A stretch of DNA of 32,998 bases from a virus. Numbering within the stretch: the first letter of the stretch is position 1; every line of letters begins with the position of its first letter. The DNA lies in the IMG/VR virus record IMGVR_UViG_3300028840_002226, positions 1 through 32,998 of that record. One strand, written 5' to 3'. A program made the translations under genes and the position numbers. Shown piece by piece: positions 26,508 through 32,715 of this stretch. The notes beneath the pieces were generated by a model. It was not told where the DNA came from. It worked only from the letters and a program-made list of their open reading frames with translations, and made no database searches.

Positions 26508-26548
26508 CCCGTCAGGCTGGCAGTCTCGAAGCTGCTTGTCTGCGTGTT

Positions 26549-26588
26549 GCCGGGCGCCCCAGGGACCACCAGGGGCGCCCGGCTTTTT
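26549..26588 (+). terminator. Rho-independent terminator of the late region
   Basis: GCCGGGCGCCCC (26549-26560) and GGGGCGCCCGGC (26572-26583) form a perfect 12-bp stem with an 11-nt loop, followed directly by TTTTT (26584-26588). This is the only hairpin in the window with a clear T-tract. It lies 105 nt after the last tail gene and marks the end of late transcription. Confidence 0.92.
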
Positions 26589-26908
26589 CGTCTTGCGGAC
26601 CTTGCTCGACGAGCGTAGGTTCGATCTCGACCCGAAGCCCGATCCGGCACCTCGGTCACGACACGCAGACAAGCACCCGCCGCTCGGCGCCTCCGGGAGC
26701 GCGATGGGGAACGAACAGGGCTGAGGCCCGACCTGCCTGGAGGCATGGGCATCGCAAGAAGCGCATGATGAAGCGGGCGGACCTTGGTCCCTAGCCGTCC
26801 CCGCGAGCTGGCACGCTCGCGCGCTCCTACCAGCCTCGGTAGCGCATCCCGCCCTGGATGGAAATGGTGTGAGAGGCTGGCCGGTCAACCTCCCGTGCAC
26901 TGCACGAC

Positions 26909-26965: not shown

Positions 26966-27021
26966 AAGATGATTCTGAGACTGATGCCGAAGATGATTCT
27001 GAGACTGATGCCGAAGATGAT
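26966..27021. repeat. Tandem 24-bp repeat (2 full + 1 partial copies)
   Basis: Two identical 24-nt units (26966-26989 and 26990-27013), each starting AAGATGATTCTGAG, are followed by an 8-nt start of a third (27014-27021). They lie 29 nt upstream of the first promoter module. The unit is AT-richer than its surroundings. Binding sites for a regulator or replication initiator are plausible; no coding frame explains them. Confidence 0.85.
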
Positions 27022-27049
27022 GTCGGCGCGGGAATCATGCGAAGAGGCT

Positions 27050-27209
27050 GCCCCCTGATTCTATCATATCCACGGCCCTTCGGAAGGACGATGAGGAGGC
27101 GATTCCGACTAATGCGGTGAGCGCAACTGGAATCATACCCCGTACTTCCATGCTGTCGATCATGGGCATTATGCTCGCAGGAAGACGGGCGCTATCATAC
27201 GGTGTGTCC
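27050..27209 (+). promoter_or_regulatory. Promoter module copy 1 (long form)
   Basis: Three TATCAT-like boxes lie upstream of ATG 27210. Box A is in GCCCCCTGATTCTATCATA (27050-27068, hexamer at 27062), box B is AATCATAC at 27131, and box C is TATCAT at 27193, exactly 17 nt before the ATG. Compared with the other copies, the B-C distance is 11 nt longer and the left half of the CGAGCA/TGCTCG dyad is missing; only TGCTCGCAGG remains. If box C is a -10 element, the transcript starts about 5 nt before the ATG, so the mRNA is effectively leaderless. There is no Shine-Dalgarno sequence. Confidence 0.7.
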
Positions 27210-27440
27210 ATGAAGAAGACCACCAGCACCCAGCCCTGCCACGCGATCGTCGTCACCGAGCCCGTGTCCCTCGAGAAGGCCATGGCCTTCCACGGAGAGC
27301 TTCCGCGCTTGAGCACCCTCCAGGCCTCCTACGAGGAGCTGGAGCAGGGCCTCTGGCGAGTGCGAGTCGCCTGCGCTTACCCGTCCTCCCTGGATGTGGT
27401 GAACACCGTGGCCGTGGGCCACGGCATCGTCCTTCACTGA
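27210..27440 (+). CDS. Small accessory protein 1 (MKKTT family leader)
   Basis: The 76-residue protein is not recognised. ATG 27210 is chosen over the upstream in-frame ATG at 27117 because the promoter-like TATCAT lies only 17 nt before it and the MKKTT start is shared with three other modules. After the shared start the sequence looks like a small alpha/beta domain (CHAIVVTEPVSLEKAMAFHG, then YEELEQGLWRVRVACAYPS) ending VNTVAVGHGIVLH. No signal peptide or membrane segment is present. It is the first gene of a two-gene unit with 27488. Confidence 0.7.
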   Translation: MKKTTSTQPCHAIVVTEPVSLEKAMAFHGELPRLSTLQASYEELEQGLWRVRVACAYPSSLDVVNTVAVGHGIVLH

Positions 27441-27487
27441 TCCTCAGCACGCAGGCCCCAAGCACCCCCAAGCACCCCTTCGAGACC
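27441..27487 (+). promoter_or_regulatory. C/A-rich translation leader of gene 27488
   Basis: The 47-nt gap has few G residues and contains AGCACGCAG, then CCCCAAGCACC and CCCAAGCACC, ending CTTCGAGACC before the ATG. No Shine-Dalgarno sequence is seen. Similar words precede 28686, 29621, 31500 and 32269. It probably provides an unstructured ribosome-loading site. Confidence 0.5.
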
Positions 27488-27934
27488 ATGAAGTTCAACA
27501 AGTACACCGACAGCTTCGGCCCGTTCCACAAGCCCGGCGAGCACAGCGACGCCGCCGACCTCTGCGAGTCGTTCTATGTGATCGAGCGGGCTCTCGTTCT
27601 CATCTCCCTGGGCCACGGCGTCTTGTCCTGGCAGGCGTACTGCAAGCACCAGGCGCAGCGCGTCGCGCTCGAGCCGATGGACGAGGGCGACACCTGGCTC
27701 GAGGCCGAGGCGTGGTTCGTCGAGTTCGAGCGTTGGCTCGACGCTAGCGACGGCGTCGAGATCCTCGAGCCCCAAGACCTTTGGATGGCGATCTCCGCCG
27801 TGATGAACCTGATCCGCCGGTCGAGCGCGCGGACGCCCTCGGGGCCGATCTTCCGCCCCGGCGCCGCCTGTAGCGCCCTCGAGATCCTGGAGATCATCCA
27901 GGAGGCCCGCAAGAACGGTACGCTCCTCCAGTAG
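27488..27934 (+). CDS. Hypothetical accessory protein
   Basis: The 148-residue protein is unrecognised. It is acidic and helical: FHKPGEHSDAADLCESFYVIERALVLISLGHGVL, then DTWLEAEAWFVEFERWLD, LWMAISAVMNLIRRS and LEILEIIQEARK. Tryptophans and aromatic residues are regularly placed within helices, suggesting a small helical-bundle protein, perhaps a host-protein binder. It is the promoter-distal gene of module 1 and is followed by a 350-nt structured gap before the next gene. Confidence 0.75.
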   Translation: MKFNKYTDSFGPFHKPGEHSDAADLCESFYVIERALVLISLGHGVLSWQAYCKHQAQRVALEPMDEGDTWLEAEAWFVEFERWLDASDGVEILEPQDLWMAISAVMNLIRRSSARTPSGPIFRPGAACSALEILEIIQEARKNGTLLQ

Positions 27935-28123
27935 GACAGGCAGGTCAGTCCGACCGATTGAGGCCGGTCGGGCGAGCCTCGCCCCTGTAGGCACGGGCTG
28001 AGGATGCCCGTGGACAAGGACCAGGGGATGAAGGCGGGGAGGGTGTCGTTCCCATGGCACCCTCCCTCTTCATGCTCGAGATGCTCGAGCTTCATGCGGG
28101 AACCCACTGCCCGCGAGCAAGGT
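27935..28123 (+). ncRNA. Structured gap: candidate RNA with several nested hairpins
   Basis: Within 27950-28066 there are, in order: CCGACCG/CGGTCGG (27950-27956 with 27965-27971); a short GGGCG/CGCCC hairpin (27970-27984); CCCCTG/CAGGGG (27982-27987 with 28022-28027) enclosing CACGGGC/GCCCGTG (27992-27998 with 28006-28012); and GGGAGGGTG/CACCCTCCC (28037-28045 with 28058-28066), followed by TCTTC. The last may be a terminator. Between 28069 and 28096 lie repeats of ATGCTCGAG and TTCATGC, sharing TTCATGCTCG with the promoter modules. No gene is supported. Confidence 0.4.
28037..28066 (+). terminator. 9-bp hairpin after module 1
   Basis: GGGAGGGTG (28037-28045) and CACCCTCCC (28058-28066) pair perfectly around a 12-nt loop, with a pyrimidine-rich TCTTC after the stem. 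It is placed between the first unit and the promoter of the second, where a terminator would be expected. Confidence 0.5.
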
Positions 28124-28284
28124 GCCCCCTGATTCTACCATAGCGTGCGGGCTCAAGGAGAGGCAGCGGAGCATCATTCCGGCGAAAAGCAGCCGCCACA
28201 ACAGCTCTGTACGGCGGATCATACGAGCAGTCGATTATGCGCTTCATGCTCGCAGGAAAGGTGCGACTATCATACGGTTTGTAC
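28124..28284 (+). promoter_or_regulatory. Promoter module copy 2 (long form)
   Basis: Box A is in GCCCCCTGATTCTACCATA (28124-28142), 149 nt before the ATG. Box B is ATCATACGAGCAG (from 28218), and box C is TATCAT at 28268, 17 nt before ATG 28285. The dyad CGAGCA (28224-28229) N17 TGCTCG (28247-28252) is intact, although the 17 nt between the arms differ from the other copies. The word CATTCCGGCGAAAAG between boxes A and B is shared with copy 3. Confidence 0.75.
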
Positions 28285-28602
28285 ATGAAGCAGCCCCTCA
28301 GCCCCGAGTTCAAGTCCCTGACCACCGAGCACTTCACCAAGGCCGAAGAGGTCGTGAACAAGCTCCTCACCGAGCGCGACGCCAGCCGCATGGGCCTTGG
28401 CCGTCGCACCCTGAACGAGGTGGACGGCGACCTCGTGACCGTGCGCCGCATCCTCGCGCGCCGCTACCGTCACGCCATGACGAACATGCTCCTCTCCGAG
28501 GACTTCTGCCCGAGCGCCTTCCGCCTGCTCGAGCGCCGCGCGCGCCGCTCCGAGCACCTGGCCGACACCGTGGCCGAGCGCCTGAACGCGGCGGGCCACT
28601 GA
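28285..28602 (+). CDS. Small accessory protein 2, helical
   Basis: The 105-residue protein starts at ATG 28285, 17 nt after the start of box C; an in-frame ATG at 28237 lies inside the promoter module. It begins MKQPLSPEF, the most divergent of the five starts. The body is helical and rich in Arg and Leu (FTKAEEVVNKLLTERDASR, TVRRILARRYRHAMTNMLLSE, SAFRLLERRARRSEHLADTVAERL). A net positive charge suggests nucleic-acid or acidic-partner binding. No known domain is recognised. Confidence 0.75.
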   Translation: MKQPLSPEFKSLTTEHFTKAEEVVNKLLTERDASRMGLGRRTLNEVDGDLVTVRRILARRYRHAMTNMLLSEDFCPSAFRLLERRARRSEHLADTVAERLNAAGH

Positions 28603-28615
28603 TCTCCACCGAGCA

Positions 28616-28640
28616 CCCCACGGGCACCGTGCCCGTGGGG
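28616..28640 (+). terminator. 10-bp hairpin between genes of module 2
   Basis: CCCCACGGGC (28616-28625) pairs with GCCCGTGGGG (28631-28640) around a 5-nt loop, 13 nt after the stop of gene 28285 and 45 nt before the next ATG. Without a T-tract, it may lower expression of the second gene or mark an RNA 3' end. Confidence 0.45.
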
Positions 28641-28685
28641 GCACTCCCGCCCTCTCAGCAGGGCAGTCTCCACACGCAGACACCG

Positions 28686-29072
28686 ATGGCCAACAAGCCG
28701 AACCCGCGCGAGGCCAAGAAGCTCGCGCTGGCCGAGAACACCATGATCCTCGGCAAGATCCTCGAGTCCCACTTGGACCTCACCTCGAAGTTCGGGGGTC
28801 CCGTGACCGCAGTCACCTCCCGGCGCGGCAACGCGATCCTCGCGACCGTGGCGTATGACGCCGGTCGCACCCTGGGCTTCTGCCGGGTCCAGGTGAAGAT
28901 CACACTCAGCGGGCTCACGCCGCTGGTGGTGCAGATGCCCGCCGAGCACCTCCTCGAGGAGGCGGGCGTGGTGCTCGACACGAGCAAGCCCAAGCCCCTC
29001 GCGTTGTTCGAGGCCGTGCTCCTCCTTGCCAACAGCCAGAAGGCGCTCGACGATTTGATCGACGAAGGCTGA
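28686..29072 (+). CDS. Hypothetical accessory protein
   Basis: The 128-residue protein starts at ATG 28686, after the leader word CACACGCAGACA. It is unrecognised. The N terminus is basic and helical (NPREAKKLALAENTMILGKIL), the centre is a beta region (VTAVTSRRGNAILATVAYDA, FCRVQVKITLSGL) and the C terminus is helical (ALFEAVLLLANSQKALDDLID). There is no signal peptide or obvious catalytic motif. It is the second gene of module 2 and is followed by a 9-bp hairpin. Confidence 0.7.
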   Translation: MANKPNPREAKKLALAENTMILGKILESHLDLTSKFGGPVTAVTSRRGNAILATVAYDAGRTLGFCRVQVKITLSGLTPLVVQMPAEHLLEEAGVVLDTSKPKPLALFEAVLLLANSQKALDDLIDEG

Positions 29073-29077
29073 GCCGA

Positions 29078-29101
29078 GCGGGAGCCCTTCGTGGCTCCCG
29101 C
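29078..29101 (+). terminator. 9-bp hairpin after module 2
   Basis: GCGGGAGCC (29078-29086) and GGCTCCCGC (29093-29101) pair perfectly around the 6-nt loop CTTCGT, 5 nt after a stop codon and 30 nt before the next box A. There is no T-tract; a terminator or mRNA end-protecting element is likely. Confidence 0.55.
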
Positions 29102-29130
29102 CGTGGTGCAGACGGCGCCCGAATGGCGCT

Positions 29131-29291
29131 GCCCCTCCATTGTATCATAGCGAGCAGCCGTAAGCAGAAGCAGCGGAGGATCATTCCGGCGAAAAGGAGT
29201 GAGCGCAACTGCCCGGTACTCTGAATCATACGAGCAGCCACTTTTGGTTTTCATGCTCGCAGGGAAGGTGTCGTTATCATACGGTTTGTTC
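29131..29291 (+). promoter_or_regulatory. Promoter module copy 3 (long form)
   Basis: Box A is in GCCCCTCCATTGTATCATA (29131-29149), with TATCAT at 29143, 149 nt before the ATG. Box B is AATCATAC at 29224, and box C is TATCAT at 29275, 17 nt before ATG 29292. The dyad is CGAGCA (29231-29236) N17 TGCTCG (29254-29259). The 100 nt from 29207 to 29306 align without gaps to copies 4 and 5, including the first five codons. Confidence 0.8.
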
Positions 29292-29585
29292 ATGAAGAAG
29301 ACCACCGCCACCCGCCGCACCTTCCGCATCGTCGCCACCCTGGAGAACGGCCGCGAGGTCGTGATCGCCTCCGCGCCCCAGGACAAGCTCGGCCGCCTCG
29401 TGAAAGCCTGGGTCGCCTTCTCCGAGACCTTCCACGGCGAGACCGTCGATTTCTATGCCCTCCAGGACAACGGCCTGGGCCGCGGGCTCTACACCGACAC
29501 GCTGATCGAGGACCTCGCAGGTATGAAGCTCCGCGGCGAGGTCGATGGCCTGACCGCGAAGGAGCTTGCCACCCTGACCGCCTGA
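29292..29585 (+). CDS. Small accessory protein 3 (MKKTT start)
   Basis: The 97-residue protein starts at ATG 29292 within the conserved module, so the upstream in-frame ATG at 29199 is rejected. After MKKTTATRR it has an alpha/beta look: FRIVATLENGREVVIA, DKLGRLVKAWVAFSETFHGE, VDFYALQDNGLGRGLY and LIEDLAGMKLRGEVDG. No family is recognised. It is followed by the C/A-rich leader AAGCACGCAGACC and then the metallohydrolase gene, with which it forms a unit. Confidence 0.75.
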   Translation: MKKTTATRRTFRIVATLENGREVVIASAPQDKLGRLVKAWVAFSETFHGETVDFYALQDNGLGRGLYTDTLIEDLAGMKLRGEVDGLTAKELATLTA

Positions 29586-29620
29586 CCCAAGCACGCAGAC
29601 CCCAAGCACCTTCGAGACTC
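29586..29620 (+). promoter_or_regulatory. C/A-rich translation leader of gene 29621
   Basis: AAGCACGCAGACCCCAAGCACC followed by TTCGAGACTC lies between the stop and the next ATG. It matches the leader of 27488 in word order (CACGCAG, CCCCAAGCACC, TTCGAGAC). No Shine-Dalgarno sequence is present. Confidence 0.55.
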
Positions 29621-30286
29621 ATGAAGAAGCCCAAGTTCAAGATCATCCAAGGACCCGCAGCGCACGAGCGCACGCTCGAGTTCCCGATGCCGCGAGGCGC
29701 TCGAGATGGCCGGATCAAGTCCGGGCTCCAGTACCACTACTTCGGCGGCACCGAGGAGGAATGGCGCCACAAGACCCGAGGCGCCGGAGGCTGGCGCGAC
29801 CGTGACTGGCAGCGGAAGAAGGCGTATGAAGCCGAGGGCCTGGCCGCTGCCGCCCTGCGGGTGAAGACCGACGAGGGCTGGCGCGTGGATGTGGCCCCGT
29901 ACTCCTGGGAGCACACCTGCCAGGTCGTTGCTCGAGTCCTGACCAGCACTCGAGTCCAGAATCGCTTCGGCTACATCCCGAAGGTGACCATCCACACGGG
30001 AGCCGGGCGCCGCGTCGCTCGAGGAGGCCGAGTGGGCTCGACTCCCTGGCTGTGCCTTCCGGTCTGGTCCAGGACCGACCTGGTGATCCTGCACGAGATC
30101 GCTCATGTGCTGACGCCCCTGTGGGAGCCGCACGGGCGCTTGTGGGCGAGGACCTACCTCGAGCTGGTGAAGTGGGAGCTGGGCGCCGACAAGCACAAGA
30201 TCTTGAAGGAGGCGTTCCGAACGAAGCGCGTGAAGTTCAACCGGAGGCGAGTGGCGAAGTCCGACGGGTTCTTTCTCGCTGAATGA
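29621..30286 (+). CDS. Zinc metallohydrolase with HExxH (TIGR04338-like)
   Basis: The 221-residue protein has the zincin motif HEIAH (H158, E159, H162) within LVILHEIAHVLTPLWEPHGRLWARTYLELV. H171 nine residues after H162 is a likely third zinc ligand. The HExxHxLTxxxxxxHGxxWxxxYxxL pattern matches the TIGR04338 putative metallohydrolase family, found mainly in actinobacteria and their phages. The N-terminal ~100 residues are basic with many Trp, Tyr and Arg residues (GGWRDRDWQRKKAYE). There is no signal peptide, so it acts inside the cell, perhaps on a host protein. It is the largest accessory product in the array and the second gene of module 3. Confidence 0.75.
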   Translation: MKKPKFKIIQGPAAHERTLEFPMPRGARDGRIKSGLQYHYFGGTEEEWRHKTRGAGGWRDRDWQRKKAYEAEGLAAAALRVKTDEGWRVDVAPYSWEHTCQVVARVLTSTRVQNRFGYIPKVTIHTGAGRRVARGGRVGSTPWLCLPVWSRTDLVILHEIAHVLTPLWEPHGRLWARTYLELVKWELGADKHKILKEAFRTKRVKFNRRRVAKSDGFFLAE

Positions 30287-30375
30287 TCCCAACTGCCCGG
30301 TACTCTGAATCATACGAGCAGCCACTTTTGGTTTTCATGCTCGCAGGCAGGTGGTCACTATCATACGGTTTGTTC
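30287..30375 (+). promoter_or_regulatory. Promoter module copy 4 (short form)
   Basis: The module starts directly after the previous stop. It contains box B AATCATAC (30308), the dyad CGAGCA (30315-30320) N17 TGCTCG (30338-30343) and box C TATCAT (30359), 17 nt before ATG 30376. Box A is absent. The first 57 nt from AACTGCCCGG (30291) to TCGCAGG are identical to copy 3; the ~13 nt just upstream of box C differ. Confidence 0.8.
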
Positions 30376-30627
30376 ATGAAGAAGACCACCTGCCAGCTCA
30401 CCTCCTCCACCCGCATCACCGTGACCGAGACCAGCGAGACCGTGATCCGCCACGCGACCATCGCGGCCGCGCGCATGAGCGCGAGCCTCGGGATCGAAGT
30501 GCCGGTCACCAAGGCGATCGTGAATGTGATCGCCTTCGCGGACAAGTGCCAGCGCGAAGGCTGCGCCATCGAAGGCATCGACCGAGACGAGCTTCTCCAG
30601 CTCGCGGACGAGATCGCGAACGCCTGA
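30376..30627 (+). CDS. Small accessory protein 4 (MKKTT start)
   Basis: The 83-residue protein starts at ATG 30376 in the conserved module. After MKKTTCQLTSSTRITVTETSE it becomes helical (IRHATIAAARMSASLGIEV, then TKAIVNVIAFADKCQREG and RDELLQLADEIAN). It is not recognised. The fold suggested is a short beta hairpin followed by helices. Its first 15 nt are identical to modules 1, 3 and 5, whereas the rest shows no similarity to those proteins. Confidence 0.75.
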   Translation: MKKTTCQLTSSTRITVTETSETVIRHATIAAARMSASLGIEVPVTKAIVNVIAFADKCQREGCAIEGIDRDELLQLADEIANA

Positions 30628-30676
30628 TCGACTCACCACCCAGCAGACCCCCTGCCAGCAAGCCTCAAGGACTCCC

Positions 30677-30928
30677 ATGCAGCTCTCCCTCCTCTCCCCC
30701 ATCATCCTCTCGAGCCTCACCTCCAGCGAGCGTGCCCGTTGGGAGCACGCGCTGGACTACTGCGTCGGTCGGGGTTGGTTCCCCGTCCAGCTCATCGGGC
30801 TCGAGCTGTGCAAGAAGCTCGTGCGCGCGGGCTTCGTCGTGACGGGCCTGGCGGGCGACCACGGGAGCTACGGGTGGAACGGCGGGTTCCGCGTCTACCC
30901 GACCACTTTGGGCCTCCAGGAAGCCTGA
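30677..30928 (+). CDS. Small hypothetical accessory protein
   Basis: The 83-residue protein starts at ATG 30677 after a C/A-rich leader (CACCCAGCAGACCCC at about 30635-30649). The N terminus is hydrophobic (LSLLSPIILSSL) but short. The body is ERARWEHALDYCVGRGWFPVQLIGLELCKKLVRAGFVVTG, followed by a Gly-rich end (DHGSYGWNGGFRVYP). No known family is recognised. The stop (TGA) runs straight into the next promoter module. Confidence 0.7.
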   Translation: MQLSLLSPIILSSLTSSERARWEHALDYCVGRGWFPVQLIGLELCKKLVRAGFVVTGLAGDHGSYGWNGGFRVYPTTLGLQEA

Positions 30929-31017
30929 TCCCAACTGCCCGGTACTCGGAATCATACGAGCAGCCACTTTCCAACTTCATGCTCGCAGGAAAGCTGCGAC
31001 TATCATACGGTTTGTTC
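30929..31017 (+). promoter_or_regulatory. Promoter module copy 5 (short form)
   Basis: Box B AATCATAC (30950), the dyad CGAGCA (30957-30962) N17 TGCTCG (30980-30985) and box C TATCAT (31001), 17 nt before ATG 31018. Box A is absent. The junction after the upstream stop (TGATCCCAACTGCCCGG) is the same as in copy 4, which suggests the module moved as one piece. Confidence 0.8.
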
Positions 31018-31428
31018 ATGAAGAAGACCACCTGCACCTCGACCTCGCCCGACCTGCCGACGATCTGCAAGCTCGTCCGCGACTTCAACTGCCGCCCCGA
31101 TGGGCTGAGCAGCCTCAAGCGACCCTGCCCTCCCATGAACTGGAGCGCCCGCCCGGTCGGGACCGACGGGAAGACCATGCTCCTCGAGGTGTACGGCGTC
31201 AGCTTCCTCGTCTGGGACAACGGCGGCGAGCTGGGCTGCGAGAAGGTGAACAGCGGCGAGCCCCGCTTCGCCCCGCTGACCTACGGGCGGTTCAAGCTGA
31301 ACGAGGTCACGATGGCCTACCGGCTCGCGGCGCTCATCCGCGACGAGGTGTACAGCTACTCGACCCGGTTCCCCGACGAGTTGCAGAAGAGCATCCTGGA
31401 CATGATGGCCGAGCAGCTCGACGCCTGA
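31018..31428 (+). CDS. Accessory protein 5 (MKKTT start)
   Basis: The 136-residue protein starts at ATG 31018; the frame is open far upstream but only through the previous gene and the promoter module. After MKKTTCTSTSPDL come a Cys-containing helical part (TICKLVRDFNCRPDGLSSL), a beta segment (KTMLLEVYGVSFLVWDNGG) and a C-terminal helical region (EVTMAYRLAALIRDEVYSYS, then ELQKSILDMMAEQL). It is not recognised. It is the largest of the five promoter-proximal proteins. Confidence 0.75.
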   Translation: MKKTTCTSTSPDLPTICKLVRDFNCRPDGLSSLKRPCPPMNWSARPVGTDGKTMLLEVYGVSFLVWDNGGELGCEKVNSGEPRFAPLTYGRFKLNEVTMAYRLAALIRDEVYSYSTRFPDELQKSILDMMAEQLDA

Positions 31429-31499
31429 TCGCCAGTCCCCAAGCACGCAGAACCTCAAGCAGAACCCCTAGCCACACGCACCCCTAGCCACACGCAGAC
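31429..31499 (+). promoter_or_regulatory. C/A-rich leader with tandem 16-bp repeat
   Basis: After CCCCAAGCACGCAGAACC the unit CCCCTAGCCACACGCA occurs twice in perfect tandem (31465-31480 and 31481-31496), ending GACATG at the next start. It appears to be an expanded version of the leaders before 27488 and 29621. Confidence 0.6.
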
Positions 31500-32157: not shown

Positions 32158-32268
32158 CGCAGAATCATTTTCTCTGAGACAGCCTCGACTTCAAGTGCGT
32201 AGGTAGATCAGAGTACGGACATCGCCAACAGCCACAGGGCCGAAGCCCACAGCACCAAGCACCACCCC
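32158..32268 (+). promoter_or_regulatory. Upstream region of the DUF6876 gene
   Basis: This gap holds AGAATCATTTTCTCTGAGAC (32161-32180), which shares TCTGAGAC with the tandem repeat at 26966. It also holds TGCGTAGGTAGA (32196-32207), identical to the word before the exonuclease gene, and a C/A-rich leader containing CACCAAGCACCACCCC just before the ATG. A promoter is likely, but no -35/-10 pair is convincing. Confidence 0.35.
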
Positions 32269-32715
32269 ATGAAAGACAGCACGCAGAAGTACCAGCTCAT
32301 CACCGACAACGAGAAGGCCGAGGCCGTGCGGGACTACGCCCGCCAGACGATTGGCAGCGAGAACATGCACCGAGACCCGCTCCATCCGCGCGGGTTCCAG
32401 TACACCGACGGCATCGAGTTCGTGGCCGAGACCTGCGGCGCCTACTGGCTGATTGACCTGGTCGCCAGCCACCAGCCGAAGATCTGCCGCAAGCACCCGT
32501 GCGAGGCGTCGTTCCAGGTGTGGGTCGTTCGCCCGCTCAAGACCAAGGAGGGTTTCAGCGCCGAGTGCTGGAGCGACACGCCGGACCACCCCGAGTCGAA
32601 GCGACTGGCCTACCAGTCCTTCGGGTACTCGGACTTCCCGAGGGAGCTGATGCCCTTCGAGTTCTGGGTCGAGTGGGTCGAGTACGGGACGATGATGCTC
32701 AAGGAGGAGCGGTAG
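32269..32715 (+). CDS. DUF6876 family protein
   Basis: The 148-residue protein matches the DUF6876 pattern: FQYTDGIEFVAETCGAYWLIDLVASHQP in the first half, SFQVWVVRPLK in the middle, then QSFGYSDFPRELMPFEFWVEW near the end. In this family the xYTDGxxxxAExxGAYWLxDxI block and the YTDFP motif are conserved; biochemical function is unknown. It occurs on phages, plasmids and other mobile elements. Start ATG 32269 follows a C/A-rich leader. Here it heads a further small-gene cluster with the zinc-ribbon gene three bases after its stop. Confidence 0.8.
   Translation: MKDSTQKYQLITDNEKAEAVRDYARQTIGSENMHRDPLHPRGFQYTDGIEFVAETCGAYWLIDLVASHQPKICRKHPCEASFQVWVVRPLKTKEGFSAECWSDTPDHPESKRLAYQSFGYSDFPRELMPFEFWVEWVEYGTMMLKEER

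Follow-up and report, generated by a model that had tools for sequence, protein, structure and literature searches.

Five start-anchored cassettes, probably promoters, precede unrelated small genes in the accessory region of a high-GC bacteriophage

Here, we describe an array of five repeated cassettes in a high-GC bacteriophage, each of them anchored to the start codon of a small gene. The array is probably an accessory-gene array in which promoter/start cassettes drive small genes that are unrelated to each other and could thereby be turned on jointly, a strategy already known from phages. The analyzed stretch, referred to as the window, comprises the whole IMG/VR record IMGVR_UViG_3300028840_002226 with a length of 32,998 bases. 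It is probably a virus fragment, since relatives in the same capsid family often have 45-78 kb. Head and tail genes lie on the + strand and reach to about 26.4 kb, followed by an accessory region, within which the five cassettes span 27.0-31.0 kb. The array consists of five two-gene units, each composed of a cassette, a small gene (A), a CA-rich leader, and a second gene (B) (Table 1).

The cassettes share the sequence TATCATACGG, which occurs exactly at 27193, 28268, 29275, 30359, and 31001 and begins in all five cases 17 nt upstream of an ATG (27210, 28285, 29292, 30376, and 31018). These are its five occurrences in 33 kb, compared to an expected count of 0.001 per strand under a first-order Markov model, and the first-pass annotation, which had reported this motif at this distance, is thereby confirmed. 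The same annotation had aligned copies 3-5 without gaps over 100 nt; the gap-free alignment in fact covers all five copies over 108 nt, and a repeat finder reported a single gap-free family of five 110-nt copies with 65-100% identity to copy 3. Further upstream, copies 2 and 3 have 174 nt in common at 76%, and copies 1-3 are also alike in an additional stretch that surrounds a TATCATA/TACCATA box. The invariant core consists of two parts and has the form ATGCTCGCAGG-N11-TATCATACGGT. Block 1 (ATGCTCGCAGG, 11 nt) extends from -39 to -29 relative to the ATG and block 2 (TATCATACGGT, 11 nt) from -17 to -7, so that the core ends 6 nt before the ATG, and the 11-nt spacer between them is variable (2/11 invariant columns). 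Among the first 15 coding bases of the A genes, 11 are invariant across copies. Only 2 of 100,000 column shuffles gave two invariant runs of at least 11. Since the most diverged copies 1, 2, and 3 by themselves retain both blocks, the pattern does not merely reflect a recent likeness of copies 3-5. A search with a position weight matrix detected no sixth core site in the window (best other score 6.0 vs 49-55 for the cassettes; simulations up to 9.1).

A second recurring feature is the short box with the core ATCATA. Of its 13 occurrences across the window, 12 lie within cassettes on the + strand. Copies 1 and 3 contain three such boxes (A, B, and C), copies 2, 4, and 5 contain B and C, and box A of copy 2 is degenerate (TACCATA). 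Boxes B and C are 51 nt apart in every copy but the first, where the distance is 62 nt. In copies 2-5, box B begins 68 nt upstream of the ATG, counted from the first A/G. Box B and block 2 have ATCATACG in common, which suggests from the sequence that they are elements of the same kind.

An open frame continues through every cassette copy into its gene. Differences between copies are distributed evenly over the codon positions (99/85/80), most of them being nonsynonymous, and the G+C content at third codon positions (GC3) of the upstream frame is 0.58-0.61, compared to a mean of 0.87 in 31-codon windows of genes. The codon-position pattern and the GC3 speak against the cassette being coding sequence, and this explanation was rejected. 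A conserved RNA structure was likewise rejected, as RNAalifold gave 21 pairs with one two-sided change and an unfavourable covariation term. A 6-bp CGAGCA/TGCTCG pairing is present in copies 2-5 without covariation and missing at that place in copy 1, and the window is without a match in Rfam at the gathering score. Two invariant 11-nt blocks separated by a spacer of fixed length point to a bipartite DNA site rather than to an RNA or coding element.

Because a strong terminator precedes copy 1 (26549-26588; the region 26540-26600 folds at -38 kcal/mol, z-score -4.0), transcription beyond this point requires a promoter there. In the mechanism proposed here, RNA polymerase together with a sigma factor or an activator would recognize the bipartite core as promoter, with TATCAT serving as the -10 element. 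Transcription would begin about 5 nt upstream of the start codon and yield a near-leaderless mRNA of gene A, and gene B, as judged from the gene order, would be read from the same transcript via its CA-rich leader devoid of a Shine-Dalgarno (SD) sequence. The ATCATA boxes located upstream may represent extra binding sites or secondary starts, and new small genes would join the array by landing behind a duplicated cassette. A near-leaderless start of the A genes is plausible. Between -5 and +52, their start regions fold at -2.7 to -6.8 kcal/mol, compared to an average of -13.5 kcal/mol for the same span of late genes; among random 57-nt windows, 0.5% attain -6.8 kcal/mol. If the mRNA began 36-56 nt upstream, these regions would not be near-unstructured, the span from -56 to +30 folding at -14 to -30 kcal/mol. 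The low structure predicted for a start near -5 thus mildly favours a short leader, part of the low fold energy being owed to the composition of the first codons.

A related phage, G008 (IMGVR_UViG_3300034409_000017), whose capsid protein is 50% identical to that of the window phage, harbors about 14 distinct start-anchored copies of a cassette of its own, which is unrelated in sequence and located near the record ends (L107, L110). Using simple patterns that return lower bounds, a TATAAT-like -10 was recognized 64-68 nt before the ATG in at least 11 of the approximately 14 cassettes, and at least 9 of these 11 have TTGA/TTGC as -35 at -87 to -91. Most of the cassettes thus contain a textbook sigma-70 promoter; a stem-loop comes after it, and then the AGGAG start signal, with AATTAGGAGATAATT-ATG at the gene start. 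By analogy only, this array supports a promoter function of the window cassettes. Behind the cassettes of G008 lie small genes, and repeats of about 29 aa are encoded by several of these; the same copy is found close to both record ends (L107:175, L110:12058).

The nearest known system in logic are the start-associated sequences (SAS) and extended SAS (ESAS) of cluster K mycobacteriophages. SAS are 13-bp sequences (GGGATAGGAGCCC) located 3-7 bp before the ATG and contain an AGGAG SD core (PMC3203893), whereas ESAS comprise putative SigA-like promoters with a -35/-10 spacing of 17-18 bp and an imperfect 17-bp inverted repeat; in phage Adephagia, seven ESAS bear SigA-like hexamers (PMC11373665). 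The role of SAS is described as unknown (PMC3203893, PMC11373665). Like the cassettes, SAS are repeated in one orientation a few nucleotides ahead of the start codons of small non-structural genes that are unrelated to each other, and the extended form holds a putative promoter, as proposed for the cassette. However, block 2 (TATCATACGGT) lacks an SD core, the + strand of the cassette shows no sigma-70 match comparable to the SigA-like hexamers, and the cassette has direct-repeat boxes, its one inverted pairing being the 6-bp CGAGCA/TGCTCG of copies 2-5. In line with the comparison drawn in the first-pass annotation, the start anchoring is shared and the sequences are unrelated.

Promoter-early stem-loop (PeSL) cassettes of T4-like phages, another precedent (cited in PMC4503421), are repeated cassettes of an early sigma-70 promoter and a stem-loop that mediate the shuffling of genes among related phages. 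The window array resembles them as a repeated regulatory cassette in an accessory region with hairpins upstream of copies 2 and 3. It differs from them in that no early sigma-70 promoter was recognized in the cassette and copies 4 and 5 lack a hairpin; G008 matches this picture much better. PeSL were reportedly described by Arbiol 2010 and Comeau 2014. In cluster A mycobacteriophages, for example L5, stoperators are short asymmetric repeats with a single orientation relative to transcription. They have been contrasted with SAS (PMC3203893). The repeats of the window share the single orientation but are restricted to five cassettes and anchored to start codons. In leaderless promoters of high-GC bacteria, a TANNNT -10 lies near the ATG. 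TATCAT fits this pattern and is positioned for a predicted start 4-6 nt before the ATG. Unlike in such promoters, the conserved upstream block matches no -35 known to us.

Several observations weigh against the proposed mechanism. No TTGACA-like -35 was found, and a consensus sigma-70 scan yielded no + strand site here. As recent duplicates, copies 3-5 owe much of their similarity to common descent. Since the -10 of G008 lies 64-68 nt and box B of copies 2-5 lies 68 nt before the ATG, transcripts could start at box B instead. The first-pass annotation had argued that missing room for a ribosome-binding site implies a leaderless start, and indeed no SD-like 4-mer occurs in the last 26 nt before the ATG. 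This argument is weak and the missing SD at the five ATGs is uninformative, since SD-like motifs at -17 to -4 are at background level across the whole phage, with a fraction of 0.14 vs 0.17 in the control (approximate values from a simple call of longest open reading frames with first ATG). The same applies to the closest relative G001 (0.25 vs 0.22), whereas most other relatives exceed the background. Finally, searches of IMG/VR with five patterns, of phage genomes with blastn, and of the records available for 16 capsid relatives did not detect the cassette; genome contigs were scanned with the capsid only, and metagenome contigs lay outside the search.

In detail, the IMG/VR scans returned merely three chance matches on AT-rich contigs (L135-L137), blastn against phages gave weak matches of 42-53 nt alone, which were judged as chance, and in the 16 capsid relatives one-mismatch matches to the short box remained at about control level next to one weak 24-nt blast match. 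The tail protein adjoining the array has no relatives in viral contigs. Matches of the module in related phages, as predicted by the first-pass annotation, thus did not appear. This is no clean refutation, because the record of the closest relative, G001, which provides the best matches to the tail genes, ends before the array region. A survey for start-anchored repeats in 13 relative records, 27 genome loci, and 55 loci of at least 8 kb (the latter partly overlapping the relative records) detected an array solely in the window and in G008; our script requires ungapped similarity at a fixed distance to the ATG and would miss diverged arrays. Within the collections covered by these searches, the sequence of the cassette is new, and the kind of system is known.

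Among the alternative explanations, a leadered promoter would have transcription begin roughly 56 nt upstream of the ATG, at box B (or A), with block 2 as an SAS-like translation element in the 5' leader. Start elements of this type are already known, and box B of copies 2-5 lies near the position of the -10 in G008. Nevertheless, we regard this arrangement as unlikely: box B of copy 1 is 11 nt farther out, the resulting leader is predicted to fold (-14 to -30 kcal/mol, see above), a fixed 11-nt spacer and an invariant block 29-39 nt upstream are unexpected for a translation signal, and the common ATCATACG suggests one kind of element for block 2 and box B. Less probable still is an array of operators, in which the ATCATAC boxes bind a phage repressor or activator and the true promoter is weak or located elsewhere. 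Two or three direct-repeat boxes per cassette, the B-C spacing of copy 1, longer by about one helical turn, and the + strand devoid of a sigma-70 promoter would agree with operators; these would not, however, need block 2 to sit at precisely the same distance from the start codon in all five copies, and no regulator was identified within the window.

The peptides encoded by the open frames are alike in all five copies, and the frame of copy 4 opens with an ATG overlapping the preceding stop codon, as would be expected if different proteins carried one common N-terminal peptide (MLAGKVRLSYGLFMKKTT or longer) that is encoded by the cassette. This is very improbable in view of the missing third-position bias, the mostly nonsynonymous differences, a GC3 far below gene level, and box B of copy 1 being out of frame. 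On the opposite strand, ATCATA reads TATGAT, a good -10, and the consensus scan indeed found three sigma-70-like sites on the minus strand at box B (mean 0.5 expected). Promoters of that direction are hardly credible as an explanation, since no minus-strand gene was seen that they could drive and the anchoring to + strand start codons would be left unexplained. Returning to promoters of near-leaderless A genes, a far more specific version is doubtful as a whole: the core may represent a promoter class that is read, in a host independent of SD signals, by a sigma-like factor or an activator encoded by the phage, producing near-leaderless mRNAs of exchangeable genes, with a separate CA-rich, SD-free start for the B genes.

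Besides the cassettes, the array contains further leaders and hairpins, and copies 4 and 5 start immediately past the preceding stop codon without an intervening hairpin. The last 36 nt upstream of the five B genes consist of 67-81% C+A compared to 36-47% upstream of the A genes (window mean 51%, 99% quantile 72%). Because the C+A content is high before B genes and low before A genes, the array has two start classes. The leaders of the genes without cassettes, including one at 32232-32268, are CA-rich and poor in G/T with recurring phrases such as CAAGCACGCAGACCCCAAGCACC and CACACGCAGACA; by their sequence, these leaders are a second kind of start-associated sequence. None of the ten array proteins has a Pfam match above the cut-off or a convincing PHROGs match, and mutual similarity of the A genes is confined to the first 16 residues, which are in part encoded by the cassette. 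A strand-fixed, non-coding cassette in front of five proteins without a detectable common family agrees with the earlier proposal of one control signal for unrelated small proteins. The secondary ATCATA boxes, the terminator upstream of copy 1, and the CA-rich leaders of the B genes were absent from the first-pass annotation.

Table 1. Features of the array and its upstream terminator (positions in the window).
Feature	Position	Strand	Remarks
Intrinsic terminator ending tail operon	26549..26588	+	12-bp G+C stem then TTTTT
Cassette copy 1	27039..27224	+	box A 27063, box B 27132, block 1 27171-27181, block 2 27193-27203
Gene A1, 76 aa	27210..27440	+	no known family
Gene B1, 148 aa	27488..27934	+	CA-rich leader 27442-27487
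Strong hairpin 5' of copy 2	28030..28071	+	terminator-like, without clear T run; 28030-28095 fold -39.8 kcal/mol, z-score -6.4
Cassette copy 2	28113..28299	+	degenerate box A ACCATA 28137, box B 28218, block 1 28246-28256, block 2 28268-28278
Gene A2, 105 aa	28285..28602	+	
Gene B2, 128 aa	28686..29072	+	CA-rich leader 28659-28685
Hairpin 5' of copy 3	29073..29107	+	without T run; fold -23.2 kcal/mol, z-score -2.2
Cassette copy 3	29120..29306	+	box A 29144, box B 29225, block 1 29253-29263, block 2 29275-29285
Gene A3, 97 aa	29292..29585	+	
Gene B3, 221 aa	29621..30286	+	HExxH motif; CA-rich leader 29588-29620
Cassette copy 4, short form	30287..30390	+	box B 30309, block 1 30337-30347, block 2 30359-30369
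Gene A4, 83 aa	30376..30627	+	
Gene B4, 83 aa	30677..30928	+	CA-rich leader 30636-30676
Cassette copy 5, short form	30929..31032	+	box B 30951, block 1 30979-30989, block 2 31001-31011
Gene A5, 136 aa	31018..31428	+	
Gene B5, 84 aa	31500..31754	+	CA-rich leader 31437-31499

If the proposed function is true, acquired phage genes of no common ancestry are expressed by a compact standard cassette, in a host that appears not to use Shine-Dalgarno signals. Together with the array of G008, which is unrelated in sequence, this would suggest that phages with this capsid have reached arrays of one cassette per new gene more than once. Candidate genes for host interaction could be sought behind such cassettes.

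The capsid relatives comprise viral contigs, genomes (Alphaproteobacteria and relatives of Desulfovibrio among others), and named phages such as Vibrio phage MAR10; those resembling prophages, with 32-52% identity, occur mainly in Alphaproteobacteria and Desulfovibrio relatives. In MW202864, a more distantly related phage whose tail protein is akin to that of the window, a protein with a sigma region 4 domain adjoins the portal gene, at a place whose counterpart falls outside the window. This protein (MW202864.1, L170:8386-8973) is annotated as sigma factor cnrH and has a Pfam match to sigma-70 region 4 above the cut-off. The product of gene B3 contains the motif HEIAHVLTPLWEPHGRLW and is zinc-peptidase-like, with distant relatives in Caulobacter and Brevundimonas phages and without a Pfam match. 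Immediately upstream of cassette 1, the 24-nt unit AAGATGATTCTGAGACTGATGCCG is present in two exact tandem copies (26966-27013). The 111-nt gap preceding the DUF6876 gene at 32269 (32158-32268) contains GAATCATTTT and a TACGG stretch and is possibly a degenerate relative of the ATCATA boxes.

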